Positions 3,976 through 36,851 of a stretch of DNA of 40,161 nucleotides are shown here, piece by piece; the stretch's first letter is position 1; every line of letters starts with the position of its first letter. Made by a program: the position numbers and the translations under genes. The stretch lies in the NCBI RefSeq assembly GCF_003946275.1, contig NZ_RHNQ01000018.1:1-40161 (forward strand), in the 5' to 3' direction. The DNA comes from Loigolactobacillus backii (GTDB lineage: Bacteria; Bacillota; Bacilli; Lactobacillales; Lactobacillaceae). The notes below the pieces were generated by a model, which did no database searches, was not told where the DNA came from, and was given only the letters and a program-made list of their open reading frames with translations.

Positions 3976-5385
3976 ATGGCATATAAAACAATTAACCCCT
4001 ATACGAATGAATTGGTAAAGACGTACCCGAATCATGACGATGCGTACGTTGAAAAGACGCTTAGTAAGGCCGATGCACTTTATCATCAATGGCGGAATCA
4101 ACCAGTTAAAGAACGAACGGTTCTATTACAAGCGGTGAGTGACTATTTTACGGCACACACGGACGAACTGGCTAAAGTTCTTACAATTGATATGGGTAAA
4201 CGGCTTAGCGAAGCAAAAGGTGAAGTGGCCATTTGTGCCGCAATTGCGCAATATTATGCGGATCACGGTGAAGAAATGCTTCAGCCACAGACGATTAAAT
4301 CTTCGGCTGGTGAAGCACGAGAAGAAAAACACCCAGTTGGTACGTTGATGATGGTCGAGCCGTGGAACTTTCCATATTACCAGCTAATGCGAGTTTTCGC
4401 GCCCAACTTTGCGGTAGGTAATCCAGTTGTTTATAAGCACGCCAGTAATACACCGGCCTCGGCGGCAGCATTTGAGGAAGCAGTTTGTAATGCCGGAGTA
4501 CCTGATGGCAGTTGTACCAATCTTTTCATTAGTTACGATCAAGTTTCTAACGTGATTGCTGACAAGCGAATCCATGGTGTGGCTTTGACTGGCTCCGAAA
4601 GAGCCGGCAAAAAAGTTGCGGCTGAAGCCGGGCAAAACTTGAAGAAAAGTACACTAGAATTAGGTGGTAGCGATGCGTTTATCGTTGCTGAAGATGCTAA
4701 TCTAGAGGAAGTTAACAAGGTTGCCACTTCGGCACGGCTTTATAATGCAGGGCAAGTTTGCACGTCATCTAAGCGCTTTATTATTACCGAAAATCATTAT
4801 GATGAATTTTTGGCCGCTTTAAAGAAGAGCTTCGCGCAAGTTAAGTGGGGCGATCCAATGGATGATGCAACAACTCTGGCACCGCTTTGTACGGTCAGCG
4901 CTAAGGAGAAACTTCAAGCGCAAGTAGATGATGCCATTGCTAACGGCGCAACACTTGAATACGGAAATCAGCCAATTGATCATCCTGGGAACTTCTTTGA
5001 GCCAACTATTTTAACTAATATTACGCGGGATAATCCAGCATACTTCACCGAATTCTTTGGCCCAGTTGCACAGGTTTATAAAGTTAAGGATGATGCAGCG
5101 GCAATTAAATTGGCCAATGATTCTGATTATGGTTTAGGTGGGGTTGTCTTTGCTGGTAATCCTAAGCATGGGGCAGAGATTGCGTCACAAATTGAAACCG
5201 GCCAAGTTTTCGTAAATACCTATTTTGGAACGTTACCTGAATTACCATTTGGCGGTGTCAAGAATTCTGGGTACGGGCGCGAACTTGGTCATTTAGGAAT
5301 TAATGAGTTTGTTAATAACGAGTTAGTGGTTGTTAATCCAGAACCAAAAGTTGATTTTGAGAATACTTTTGGTGGCTTTGTTTAA
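3976..5385 (+). CDS. NAD(P)-dependent aldehyde dehydrogenase, succinate-semialdehyde type
   Basis: The 469-aa enzyme oxidises an aldehyde to the acid with NAD(P). Overall sequence and length resemble the short GabD-type succinate-semialdehyde dehydrogenases found in lactobacilli. The general base E228 (LELGG) and the nucleophile C262 (GQVCTSSKR) are both present, as is the VEPWNFPYYQ cofactor region. The ATG follows AGGAGG. It stands alone, with a promoter and a possible cre site upstream and a terminator at 5586-5617. The true substrate cannot be read from sequence; no GABA aminotransferase or transporter is next to it. Confidence 0.9.
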   Translation: MAYKTINPYTNELVKTYPNHDDAYVEKTLSKADALYHQWRNQPVKERTVLLQAVSDYFTAHTDELAKVLTIDMGKRLSEAKGEVAICAAIAQYYADHGEEMLQPQTIKSSAGEAREEKHPVGTLMMVEPWNFPYYQLMRVFAPNFAVGNPVVYKHASNTPASAAAFEEAVCNAGVPDGSCTNLFISYDQVSNVIADKRIHGVALTGSERAGKKVAAEAGQNLKKSTLELGGSDAFIVAEDANLEEVNKVATSARLYNAGQVCTSSKRFIITENHYDEFLAALKKSFAQVKWGDPMDDATTLAPLCTVSAKEKLQAQVDDAIANGATLEYGNQPIDHPGNFFEPTILTNITRDNPAYFTEFFGPVAQVYKVKDDAAAIKLANDSDYGLGGVVFAGNPKHGAEIASQIETGQVFVNTYFGTLPELPFGGVKNSGYGRELGHLGINEFVNNELVVVNPEPKVDFENTFGGFV

Positions 5386-5585
5386 GGCTAGCACTCAGAG
5401 CCATGTTTCTTGCGGCATGTACTTTGCCACAAGAATGGCCATCGTTCGTAGCATCAAGATTATTAGCGATTCTGACTAATAATCCTCAATTGCGAAGTAG
5501 AATCTAACCGTTTTTTCAAACACTCTCGTTAGGCACGTGAACCTGGACTTTTGGTGCACGTTCTGGCGTAATGTTTGGAAATAGG
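5386..5585. other. Structured noncoding region after the dehydrogenase gene
   Basis: Two consecutive hairpins are visible. The first (about 5412-5455) pairs GCCAT/ATGGC and TCTTG/CAAGA with GGCA/TGCC around a bulge. The second (5457-5485) is a perfect nine-pair stem, GATTATTAG with CTAATAATC. They are followed by the dispersed repeat at 5476-5525. No ribosome site or plausible gene is present. It may be part of a mobile noncoding repeat or a structured transcript end. Confidence 0.5.
5476..5525 (+). repeat. Dispersed noncoding repeat, copy A
   Basis: From 5485 the 41-base core (beginning CTCAATTGCGAAGTAG) matches the reverse strand of 22201-22161 at 36 of 41 positions without gaps. Neither copy lies in a recognised gene. 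The similarity extends less well to the left, into CTAATAATC. Confidence 0.75.
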
Positions 5586-5617
5586 AAGAGGCTGGGGCTG
5601 TTGTCCCGGCCTCTTTT
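5586..5617 (+). terminator. Terminator AAGAGGCTGGG/CCCGGCCTCTT
   Basis: An 11-pair stem with one G-U closes an eight-base loop and is followed by TT. Stems of the GAGGCTGGG type are common in lactic acid bacteria. The flanking bases allow weak function on either strand; it would end the dehydrogenase transcript. Confidence 0.7.
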
Positions 5618-5715: not shown

Positions 5716-6120
5716 ATGAAACAGCTCGCAGATGGTAATTGGCAATGGCCTCGTTACCAGGATTTCTTACCTGAATTTATTCAGGCTTACATGGCAGTTG
5801 ATCCAACGATTGTTACTGATTTTGATCGTTATGTCACTAATTTTCCGAAACGAACTGAGATTTGTCAGCATTACGCTAAAAAATGGCTAACAATAAAGCA
5901 GGATGCTGGGCTTAACTTTCAACCAACTACTTTATCCGTTGGTGAATTATTAAATTTCATCAGTGAAATTTGGGCGCAAGAACCTGTTAATTTATACTCA
6001 TTGATGAAGCATGGTATCACTGAACAGTTAGTTGCTGCCCGCTTTGAAAGTCTGGACCGGCTTTACGCCATGCTACATGCTACATGTCACCCCAAAGGAG
6101 AACTAAATGCCAAGTCATGA
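5716..6120 (+). CDS. Unknown 134-aa protein
   Basis: I do not recognise this protein. It is soluble, with no signal peptide or membrane segment, rich in aromatic residues in its first third (NWQWPRYQDF), and probably mainly helical. The ATG follows GAGG nine bases upstream and the gene has its own promoter. Its last 14 bases overlap the zinc-ribbon gene, and the ribosome site of that gene (AAAGGAG) lies inside it, so the two are translationally linked. Codon use looks like that of neighbouring genes, which supports a real gene. Confidence 0.75.
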   Translation: MKQLADGNWQWPRYQDFLPEFIQAYMAVDPTIVTDFDRYVTNFPKRTEICQHYAKKWLTIKQDAGLNFQPTTLSVGELLNFISEIWAQEPVNLYSLMKHGITEQLVAARFESLDRLYAMLHATCHPKGELNAKS

Positions 6121-6382: not shown

Positions 6383-6456
6383 GTCTCAGTAGCTCAGCTG
6401 GATAGAGCAATGGTCTTCTAAACCATGGGTCGTGGGTCCGAATCCCACCTGAGGCA
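6383..6456 (+). tRNA. tRNA-Arg (anticodon TCT)
   Basis: The cloverleaf is complete: acceptor GTCTCAG pairs with CTGAGGC (one G-T), D arm GCTC/GAGC, anticodon stem ATGGT/ACCAT with loop CTTCTAA giving anticodon TCT, variable GGGTC, and T arm GTGGG/CCCAC. The discriminator is A and CCA is not encoded, so it must be added enzymatically. It reads AGA (and AGG by wobble). It stands alone with its own promoter and terminator. Confidence 0.97.
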
Positions 6457-9482: not shown

Positions 9483-9586
9483 GTTGTATTTGTAGCTTCC
9501 AAAGCTGCAACCGCACGAAGCGAGTTTTTAAGTTTCGTCTGAACACTTGTATTCGGCGAGTCTAAGATATTAAGGAGGTGCATATT
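9483..9586 (+). promoter_or_regulatory. L21 ribosomal protein leader
   Basis: The ~100-base untranslated leader between the promoter and rplU is at the position of the Firmicutes L21 leader. It contains GTAGCTTCCAAAGCTGC, which folds into a short stem, and the CGAAGCGAG...TTTCGTCTG region typical of this element. In the family, free L21 is thought to bind it and limit expression of its own operon. Assigned by context and these pieces, not by a covariance search. Confidence 0.7.
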
Positions 9587-21182: not shown

Positions 21183-21806
21183 ATGGCAACGCGTGGAATG
21201 TTAATTGTGCTGTCTGGGCCATCGGGCGTTGGTAAAGGAACTGTTCGTAAGGCAATGTTTCGTGATAATAAGAAACGAGATTTTGTCTACTCAGTGTCGA
21301 TGACAACCCGAAAGCCACGACCTGGAGAAGTTGATGGCGTGGACTATTATTTTCGTAGTGAGCAGGAGTTTAAACACGAGATTGCGACTGACGGCATGCT
21401 CGAGTATGCTCAATACGTCGATCATTATTACGGGACACCGTTGAAGTACGTTAATCAAACGTTGGACTCTGGTAAGGATGTTTTTTTAGAAATTGAAGTC
21501 AACGGTGCAATGCAGGTTCGTGAAAAATGTCCAGACGGTGTTTTTATTTTCCTAACACCACCTGATTTATCTTCTCTCAAAGAACGAATTAAGGGACGTG
21601 GCTCTGAAGATAGCCAAACAATTAATAAACGGATGGTTAAGGCTGTGGAAGAGATTAAAATGATGCAGCAATACGATTATGCCGTAGTTAACGACCGAGT
21701 TTTCCTTGCGGTTAAACGAATTGAGAATATTATTGAAAGTGAACATTTGCGTGTAAAACGAGTTATGACGCAATATGAAAAAATGATTGGAGCGGTTGAA
21801 AAATGA
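21183..21806 (+). CDS. gmk: Guanylate kinase
   Basis: The 207-aa kinase phosphorylates GMP to GDP. The P-loop [11 protein letters not shown], the GMP-binding region [19 protein letters not shown] and the [10 protein letters not shown] lid region are present. AAGGAGAAG precedes the ATG. Its end overlaps the rpoZ start (ATGA), a conserved coupling in Firmicutes. Confidence 0.98.
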
Positions 21807-22057
21807 TTTTATATCCCTCAATTGATAAATTATTGGAAAAAGTTGATTCACGTTATTCGTTGGCAGTTTTAGCGGCTAAGCGTGCCCATGAAATTGAAGC
21901 TGGTGCTTTAAAGATGCTACCGGAATATCGGTCACCACAAACGGTGGGCCAAGCCTTAGAAGAAATTGCCGAAGGTGACGTTATCATTGATCCGGCTTCA
22001 CAAATGACTGAACGGGAAGCAGAAGCAATTGACGAAGAAAATAAGCACGATAAATAA
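21803..22057 (+). CDS. rpoZ: RNA polymerase omega subunit
   Basis: The 84-aa subunit helps assemble RNA polymerase around beta-prime. It starts [20 protein letters not shown], contains the conserved [11 protein letters not shown] helix, and ends in an acidic tail. It overlaps gmk by four bases and is followed by a terminator. Confidence 0.97.
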
Positions 22058-22100: not shown

Positions 22101-22160
22101 GTGGCAGGCGCAAAGCTATTTTAGTTGTTTTCTGCTACAATTATAGGCAGTGGAATTTGG

Positions 22161-22213
22161 GAGTCTTTGAAAAAGCGTTCAGATTCTATTTCGCAATTGA
22201 GACTTATTACTAG
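22161..22213 (-). repeat. Dispersed noncoding repeat, copy B
   Basis: Its minus strand matches 5485-5525 at 36 of 41 positions (core CTCAATTGCGAAATAG). The match becomes gapped beyond 22201. Confidence 0.75.
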
Positions 22214-22366
22214 CTTCGCTGACGTTGTCGATCGGACTAAGAAAAAATAAGGTCCGAGTCGCGGCTCAAAACGCTAACCAGCTTACTGTGCCATTTGTTG
22301 TCCATTCAACTATGGCAAAACTCGCCAAGTTGAAACCAGGTAACTGTAGGCAGTTTTTTTCACGGG

Positions 22367-22394
22367 TTTACACTAAATTAGTTCAGAAGATACT
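22367..22394 (+). promoter_or_regulatory. Possible coaBC promoter
   Basis: TTTACA, a 16-base spacer and GATACT, each with one or two mismatches to consensus, about 95 bases before the coaBC start. Confidence 0.5.
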
Positions 22395-22489
22395 AGCAAA
22401 CGTTTTTTTCAAACACGCTTGCACTAAACAAGGAAAAACTAACCTAAACGTAGTCTAAGTTGATCGATGAAGAAGTGGAGGAACTACAA

Positions 22490-23692
22490 TTGTTAGCAGG
22501 AAAACATATTGCGTTATACGTTACCGGTGGAATTGCAGCTTATAAGGCGGCTTCTTTAGTGCGAGAATTAATTCGCCGTGGCGCAGAAGTTCGTGTGGCC
22601 GAAACCGAGGGAGCAACCGCTTTTGTAACTCCACTCACCTTTCAAGTGTTGAGTAAACACGTTGTTTATACGGATCGTTTTAAACAAGAAGATGCGGCTG
22701 AGGTGGCTCATATTGCTTTGGCTGATTGGACGGATATCGCGATCATTGCACCGGCTACAGCAGATGTTATTGGTAAATTAGCCAATGGGATTGCGGACGA
22801 TTTTGTAACAACTGCATTATTGGCTACGGTTGCGCCAAAATATATTGCACCAGCAATGAACGTGCATATGTTGGCAAATTCGGCGGTAGCCCGTAATTTG
22901 GCCCAATTGCAGCAGGATGGGTTTGATGTGATTGATCCAGCCGTCGGTTTTCTTGCTGAAGGTTACTCTGGTAAGGGACGCTTGCCAGAGCCGCATGAAA
23001 TTGCGGACTACGTTGCGCATAAATCTAATCCACAACAATTACCATTGCAGGGTAAAAAAGTTATTATTACGGCTGGAGGGACCCGTGAACGGTTAGATCC
23101 AGTTCGTTTTATTGGGAATGATTCATCCGGTAAAATGGGTTATGCCTTGGCGGAAGCTGCGCGTGATCTGGGGGCTGAAGTAATCTTAATTAGTGCAAAG
23201 ACAAATCTAAGTGCACCAACTGGAATAATGCTTATTTCGGTGGAAACTGCGGCACAAATGAGTCAGGCGGTTCAGGCACAGTTTAAAACGGCCGCAATTG
23301 TTATTATGGCCGCAGCCGTTTCGGATTATCGGCCTAAACAGGTTGCTAAAGAAAAAATAAAGAAAACGGCGGTAACTTTAACTTTAGAATTAGAAAAAAC
23401 GCCGGATATTTTGGCGACACTTGGGCAGAATAAACAACAACAATACTTAATTGGTTTTGCTGCAGAAACGCAGAATATTGCTGAATATGCCCAAGGAAAA
23501 TTAACTGCCAAAAAAGCAAATATGATCGTTGCCAACGATGTTTCCAATCGTAATGCAGGTTTTAACGTTAGTACGAATAAAGTGACTATTTTCCGACCAA
23601 ATCAAGGGCCGCTTGATTTGCCGTTAGCAGATAAACATGTTATTGCCCGGGAGATTTTGGCACAAGCAGTAGAAGATTTGAAGTTAAATTAG
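22490..23692 (+). CDS. coaBC: Bifunctional CoaBC (PPC synthetase/decarboxylase)
   Basis: The 400-aa enzyme makes 4'-phosphopantetheine in coenzyme A synthesis. The N-terminal flavoprotein decarboxylase half starts VTGGIAAYKAASLVR and has the PAMNVHM motif; the C-terminal synthetase half has ITAGGTRERLDPVRF and the SSGKMG loop. The TTG start at 22490 follows GGAGG by eight bases. The site usually written G-x-LACG-x-x-GxGR reads GFLAEGYSGKGR, so the cysteine is replaced by glutamate. It opens the coaBC-priA-fmt-rsmB run. Confidence 0.95.
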   Translation: MLAGKHIALYVTGGIAAYKAASLVRELIRRGAEVRVAETEGATAFVTPLTFQVLSKHVVYTDRFKQEDAAEVAHIALADWTDIAIIAPATADVIGKLANGIADDFVTTALLATVAPKYIAPAMNVHMLANSAVARNLAQLQQDGFDVIDPAVGFLAEGYSGKGRLPEPHEIADYVAHKSNPQQLPLQGKKVIITAGGTRERLDPVRFIGNDSSGKMGYALAEAARDLGAEVILISAKTNLSAPTGIMLISVETAAQMSQAVQAQFKTAAIVIMAAAVSDYRPKQVAKEKIKKTAVTLTLELEKTPDILATLGQNKQQQYLIGFAAETQNIAEYAQGKLTAKKANMIVANDVSNRNAGFNVSTNKVTIFRPNQGPLDLPLADKHVIAREILAQAVEDLKLN

Positions 23693-36749: not shown

Positions 36750-36773
36750 TTAAATTTTATAGTTAAGTTATGG

Positions 36774-36851
36774 TGGGTTAAAGGACATTTCTGGATGATT
36801 AAGTGATGCTTATTCAAGAAACTAATTGTCTTTTAACCCATGTTTTTGTTT
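36774..36851 (+). terminator. Long hairpin between fakA and recG
   Basis: TGGGTTAAAGGACA (36774-36787) pairs with TGTCTTTTAACCCA (36827-36840): 14 pairs with one G-U, a 39-base loop containing an inner TTTCT/AGAAA, then TGTTTTTGTTT. It is a terminator or attenuator; recG starts only 18 bases later. Confidence 0.75.

Follow-up and report, generated by a model that had tools for sequence, protein, structure and literature searches.

RUP and other MITEs of the IS630/Tc1 kind are short, noncoding elements with inverted ends and a TA duplication. RUP and IS630-Spn1 are both named in the description of the BOX elements of Streptococcus pneumoniae by Croucher et al. (2011, PMC3049150), according to which BOX is built of three modules, A, B and C, of which B repeats. 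The REP/RAYT systems comprise palindromic repeats for which movement in the form of folded single-stranded DNA has been proposed, and the words Lactobacillus and Firmicutes are absent from the main text of the paper on them (PMC3733652). For the Lactobacillales, the account of Rfam motifs in PMC2864571 includes asd, the L17 downstream element, lactis-plasmid, Lacto-rpoB and Lacto-usp. One survey of stem-loop families assigns to L. johnsonii only one family, which lies inside genes (PMC2267715). Another places the stem-loops of low-GC Firmicutes near stop codons and describes them as mostly terminator-like; by its account, they were not explained by any large repeat family in the species studied (PMC1590033). 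No description of the repeat reported here was found in searches of the open-access literature, judged by title and the start of the abstract; subscription journals lie mostly outside that literature, and a prior description is possible.

The DNA analysed here is a stretch of 40,161 nucleotides of Loigolactobacillus backii (contig NZ_RHNQ01000018.1), hereafter the window. An earlier note had pointed to a 41-base core that recurs in it in opposite orientation, both times in gene-free DNA. The results showed that the minus strand of 22161-22209 (copy B) matches 5477-5525 (copy A) at 86% over 49 bases (E 1.0e-9 in a single-genome search). Gene calls on either side confirmed that both copies are intergenic and that neither is part of a gene. 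Copy A lies between an aldehyde-dehydrogenase-family gene (3976-5385) and an ORF (5716-6120), and copy B between rpoZ (21803-22057) and coaBC (22460-23692). When 5440-5560 was used as query, 51 matches at E <= 0.001 were obtained in the source genome, a 2.57-Mb draft in 143 contigs, and of 59 relatives searched, 5 had matches, these 5 all being of the same genus. Three queries gave 51, 91 and 53 matches in the source genome, and the sister species had 97. Copy number and gene calls rule out a chance match or a gene fragment. The core itself is a real repeat but not a unit, because the module scan placed it at the junction between the end of hairpin module b and TAIL, the right end of a larger element. 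The full extent of that element, its modular build, its spread through the Lactobacillaceae and its tie to stop codons lay beyond the view of the earlier note. With a probability of about one half, we believe that both stretches are members of a non-autonomous mobile hairpin family of Lactobacillaceae, which has been selected in its folded form and has settled as 3'-UTR structure.

Copy A is the right-hand portion of a type I element, with the left end missing (5388..5528, plus strand; modules a3, b and TAIL matched at 5407-5526). Its TAIL, the right terminal arm, occupies 5499..5526 on the plus strand (96% over 28/28 positions of the module consensus). It is fused to a terminator-like type II element (5528..5617, plus strand; E2 at 5528-5575 and T2 at 5586-5617), which forms hairpins in the fold. 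In the sister species, 5388-5528 is missing and its place is taken by about 25 bases resembling the start of a type II element; the type II part is retained and could be aligned. Copy B, an element in degenerate form, spans about 265 bp of the coaBC 5' leader (22160 to about 22424) and runs from HEAD to TAIL on the minus strand. It contains TAIL (22161-22187), half of b (22186-22209), d (22219-22265) and a (22297-22336); its left end (about 22341-22424) was judged by eye against the family. Directly upstream, a stretch at 22110..22158 on the plus strand, holding TTTTCTGCTACAAT with its context, is kept in the source genome, in L. iwatensis and in four other species, and is probably the coaBC promoter. 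Copy A with its terminator folds well beyond shuffled sequences (z -5.95), and copy B folds no better than they do (z -0.60). A covariance model of the minimal unit matched neither copy in the window, since in each the unit is incomplete and interrupted by modules; the sole match in the window was weak (19.1 bits, 36769-36844). The Rfam matches in the window, a ribosomal protein L21 leader (9499-9573) and a tRNA (6383-6456), are both away from the elements.

Copies were fetched with their flanks and scanned with module consensus strings. Type I elements follow the order left hairpin P, HEAD, the optional modules f, a, a2, a3, b2, b, c and d, and then TAIL. The P module is about 60 bp long, occurs in many copies and lies outside HEAD. 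HEAD and TAIL are inverted repeats of each other, with GTGTTTGRAAAA at the left and TTTTYCAAACAC at the right in many elements; 84.5% of cells were paired over 95 distinct HEAD-TAIL pairs, so the family has terminal inverted repeats as MITEs do. At loci with at least two type I modules, module orientation agreed in 319 of 322 cases in the source genome and in 387 of 390 in the sister. Neighbouring modules stood in one order in 221 of 240 and 272 of 283 pairs, respectively, d before b being the commonest exception. Several loci carry at least two elements in a row. Tandem arrays of module a, with or without b, in which no HEAD or TAIL was detected, were seen at L166:8549-9198, at L222 and L223 (genome G005), at L225 and L226 (G004) and at L213 (G086); where measured, their period was about 107-112 or 197 bp. 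Type II elements (S2-E2-T2) have a partly palindromic sequence with a terminator-like hairpin at the end, and some of them surround type I elements. They make up a second repeat family (L037:35-240, GGAGTGGGACAAAAGTC ... GACTTTTGTCCC; 53 matches in the source genome), possibly related to repeats of other Firmicutes.

The minimal unit, about 118 nt long, forms an imperfect hairpin, 5'-AAACGTG ... CACTCT-3', with a recurrent 4-nt bulge and recurrent mismatches. Its length was 115-119 nt in 46 of the 47 cases found with a motif pattern that allowed 83-138 nt, the remaining one being 86 nt long, and nearly all 47 units fold as a single long hairpin. Alignment A1, made with plain MAFFT, contained 43 of them; a near-perfect palindrome (L160:5481), the 86-nt unit (L183:11171) and two near-copies (L184:13322 and L191:13861) were dropped. 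In A1, 93.6% of cells were paired compared with 80.0% in shuffles, two-sided change occurred in 33 of 46 pairs, and two-sided changes numbered 258 against 69 in shuffles. When the partner was slid by 1 to 3 columns, pairing fell to 30-46%. Over the loci of the source genome and the sister, the 14-bp terminal stem had 82 two-sided changes (shuffle maximum 48) and module c had 159 (shuffle maximum 86). In a simple arm test on the same loci, paired cells in modules a, b and d equalled those of shuffles, which low variation or a wrong register would explain. Alignment A2, comprising 61 matches from 30 further loci, was fitted to the covariance model with reverse-strand matches included, and 43 of 46 pairs covaried; such counts come out too high for related sequences, but the genera differ widely from one another. 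Related loci in other species and genera have the same layout with different stems.

These compensatory changes, beyond both shuffled and shifted controls, show constraint on a single strand in its folded form, whether RNA or DNA. They support the proposal of a shared structured RNA end as far as the fold is concerned; covariation does not separate RNA from single-stranded DNA. A known RNA family was rejected on 25 loci: over the elements, Rfam cmscan gave only weak matches far below the gathering score at 13 loci (E <= 0.5) and no match at 12 further loci searched at the gathering score. The Lactobacillales Rfam motifs are likewise structured and noncoding, and the L17 element, judging by its name, also lies behind a gene (PMC2864571). 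However, cmscan detected none of them at these 25 loci. The likeness to REP/RAYT lies in palindromic repeats that are thought to move as folded single-stranded DNA, but REPs are described as 20-40 bp long with a GTAG or CGTC tag (PMC3733652), and the Lactobacillaceae units of about 118 nt do not fit that definition.

The covariance model, under strict filters, detected the unit in 129 of 301 Lactobacillaceae genomes and in 19 of 40 genera, often with at least 12 candidates scored per genome. A plain DNA search found the composite element in 11 of 151 Lactobacillaceae genomes, the source genome included. One locus (L234:1255-1742, genome G121) has four tandem hairpin units with a period of about 123 nt, alike in shape and different in letters. 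Seven plasmid records, 6 of Ligilactobacillus salivarius and 1 of Latilactobacillus curvatus, contained single units, with no annotated feature beneath them. A plasmid origin was rejected: copy A had no match in the plasmid collection, and single units of two other genera matched a few plasmids and that of a third genus none. A phage origin was also rejected, as the single unit tried gave no match. On the Latilactobacillus curvatus plasmid NZ_CP031004.1 (L261:1500-1973), a stretch that matches regions of ISL3-family transposases on other plasmids ends about 30 bases from a hairpin unit; the records of those plasmids cover only the IS part at the sensitivity used.

Among the 80 loci listed from named genomes, the best match to the coaBC protein of the window was that of Loigolactobacillus iwatensis JCM 18838 (97% identity), which was also the only one of its genus among the matches listed, the source genome itself being possibly absent. 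Genome G007 is 96% identical to the window over 3.6 kb at coaBC and aligns to it exactly like the L. iwatensis locus. We took G007 to be L. iwatensis, as this alignment suggests, and treated it as the sister species. The stretches compared amounted to 391 kb of the source genome and 503 kb of the sister, and because they were picked around matches, their element densities are not genome averages. The sister loci numbered 85; three of these, from small overlapping loci, were dropped from later counts. Single-module fragments, pure type II loci and one module-a array were excluded from the site comparison. Both flanks were found in the sister stretches for 48 of the 56 source loci with type I modules. 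In the sister, 39 of these sites carried a type I element, 2 only a type II element (copy A being one of them) and 7 no detected element. The 39 shared sites had the same module string in 5 cases, the same length within 5 bases in 9 and a different length in 30. The differences inspected were often exact insertions or deletions of modules in elements that were alike in other respects, for example at L162:1970, L164:17099, L174:8723 and L163:11176. As in BOX, the elements are modular and their modules vary at a given site, with 30 of 39 sites differing in length and indels at module joints.

BOX elements are the nearest analogue. According to their description (PMC3049150), they too are intergenic and modular, have a predicted fold and many copies, vary in size among strains through gain and loss of modules at fixed sites, and show low current mobility. 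In contrast to the three modules of BOX, the hairpin family has about ten recognisable parts, two ends and eight modules, whose order is mostly fixed; this distinction is drawn from the description of BOX. The family also differs from BOX, as described there, in its core of about 118 nt with covarying arms in many genera and in its one-sided tie to stop codons.

Five of the seven element-free sister sites were inspected: one was clean, one ambiguous, one deletion-like (L169:9790) and two unclear. Several empty sites are deletion products that retain a piece of the element, not insertions. The clean site is L171:10378, where a lone minimal unit is missing from the aligned sister site (L202). 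The source genome reads AAACTA before the element, G...CC at its two ends and CTAATTC behind it, and the sister reads AAACTAATTC; CTA thus stands on both sides of the element, compared with one CTA in the sister, followed there by A and not G. As read from the alignment, this one clean site shows an insertion. At the ambiguous site, L164:15387, a full element follows the remnant of a right end. The sister has this remnant but lacks the full element, and a loss there through recombination of one TAIL copy with the other would leave the same sequence. In four other Loigolactobacillus species, the copy B site consists of roughly 45 nt and no element, between the promoter-like stretch (kept in six genomes) and the start of coaBC. 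L. iwatensis has a diverged element there with TA on both flanks. The many copies, the inverted ends, the site empty in the sister and the copy B site empty in four species support the earlier suggestion of a small noncoding mobile repeat.

The position of the elements relative to genes was determined at 28 loci, one per genome other than the source and the sister, of which 5 came from the same genus and 23 from eight other genera. Two of them (L255 and L256) appear to be one site found in two species, and five belong to one genus (g26). Here and in the source stretches, the genes were called with in-house programs that are rough at gene starts. TAIL faced the 3' end of a gene at 23 of the 28 loci (binomial p 0.0009). 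In 19 of these 23 cases, TAIL ended within 20 nt of that 3' end, whereas HEAD ends did so in 0 of 17; by eye, the 28 loci are mostly without a P module. The stop codons at the 19 loci were TAA (10), TAG (7) and TGA (2). The stop overlapped the first bases of the element in 7 of the 19, in five of these as a TAG that uses the first two. Because the CACTCT end abuts stop codons, the reverse-complement strand carries the hairpin behind the stop, in the order stop - AGAGTG - hairpin - CACGTTT. In the source stretches, TAIL was within 20 nt of a stop in 18 of 21 cases facing a 3' end (within 11 nt in 17), and copy B, at 103 nt from the stop, is an exception. HEAD was within 20 nt in 0 of 11, which is not a fair contrast, since HEAD has the P module, of about 60 nt, on its outer side. 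TAIL also pointed toward gene starts (23) as often as toward 3' ends (21) in these stretches. Because TA and the first G of the element restore TAG, stop codons would be safe targets. Both orientations would then be expected, yet only one occurs, which suggests either selection or a directional mechanism.

An RNA useful to the host could be behind this. As a 3'-UTR hairpin, the unit would shield the end of the mRNA, adjust termination or be released as a small RNA by cleavage; its copies would have spread by ordinary duplication and recombination and been kept for their function. The preference for one strand behind stops agrees with such a role. So do the wobble pairs of A2, which favour the strand transcribed with the preceding gene (51 vs 28, p 0.013, with two fixed columns omitted; 43 of the 61 matches passed the forward-strand filter for this count), but on A1 with all columns they were even (64 vs 61). 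A strong terminator-like hairpin follows the unit in L253 (fold z -12.9), and others were seen by eye, uncounted, at several further loci. However, type I elements of the source genome between co-directional genes had no clear strand preference (9 vs 17), and the presence of the hairpin varies among species. The genes that precede the units also speak against a shared function: of the 19 genes with a TAIL end within 20 nt, ten were scanned, and five of these matched NCBIfam models, and these were unrelated (LeuS, an amino-acid antiporter-like protein, MurB, CbpA and PcrA); the other five had no NCBIfam match at E <= 1e-8. We regard a host-useful RNA as rather doubtful.

TA was found near both outer ends in 15 of 26 source elements and 9 of 25 sister elements for which both ends were found, where about 12% is expected by chance. 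The evidence for a TA duplication consists of the one clean site and copy B in L. iwatensis. Repeats flanking the elements were mostly of chance length, and a few were long; long target duplications were rejected, and the 50-base repeat at L169:9789 is an artefact of end detection. Inverted ends and TA beyond chance would suit a classical MITE, whose terminal inverted repeats are recognised as double-stranded DNA and whose arms are alike only through template switching or gene conversion. The locus L174:4784-4895 would also suit it, being HEAD - f - inverted HEAD, a near-perfect palindrome of the kind that arm-to-arm copying is expected to produce and a possible template-switch product; the sister has a normal double element there. 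Such copying should erase mismatches, yet the 4-nt bulge and several unpaired positions recur in the aligned units. The letters of the terminal stem vary widely within one genus and across genera, unlike a terminal inverted repeat read by an enzyme. The family resembles IS630/Tc1 MITEs in being short and noncoding with inverted ends, and a TA duplication is likely in it too, but its terminal arms keep pairing and not sequence. An IS630 partner was rejected: the IS630-type domain PF13358, of the only transposase family examined, was absent from all 8 genomes of the genus. A classical MITE is unlikely. Ordinary bidirectional terminators alike by convergence are very improbable, since the location at gene 3' ends and the terminator-like hairpins of type II would fit them, but the near-constant length, the conserved blocks, the optional modules, the many copies over genera, the lack of a consistent U-tract in the unit (by eye) and the covariance-model results oppose them.

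Turning back to a family that moves as a folded hairpin, the data support past movement of the hairpin element and a constraint on its folded form. Such an element would insert at TA (CTA), with duplication of those bases, and a putative enzyme that requires the folded single strand would mobilise it in trans. Insertion behind stop codons in one orientation would be tolerated or favoured, as the gene would remain whole and merely gain a structured 3' UTR. The mosaic form that the element took on in the L. iwatensis clade may stem from recombination or template switching between copies. We suggest only tentatively that this is a family-wide class of mobile hairpins, specialised for gene ends and read by shape and not by letters, which inserts in one orientation into the TA of a stop codon, restores the stop, becomes the 3' UTR of unrelated genes and accretes hairpin cassettes in a set order.

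The Lactobacillaceae are widely used in food and health, and a repeat present in 129 of 301 of their sampled genomes has no Rfam match above threshold. The strong constraint on pairing, combined with free letters, makes the question of RNA or single-stranded DNA directly testable. If the stop-codon preference reflects targeting of insertion, a mobile element could colonise dense genomes without breaking genes, and the family would show one route by which bacterial 3' UTRs can arise.
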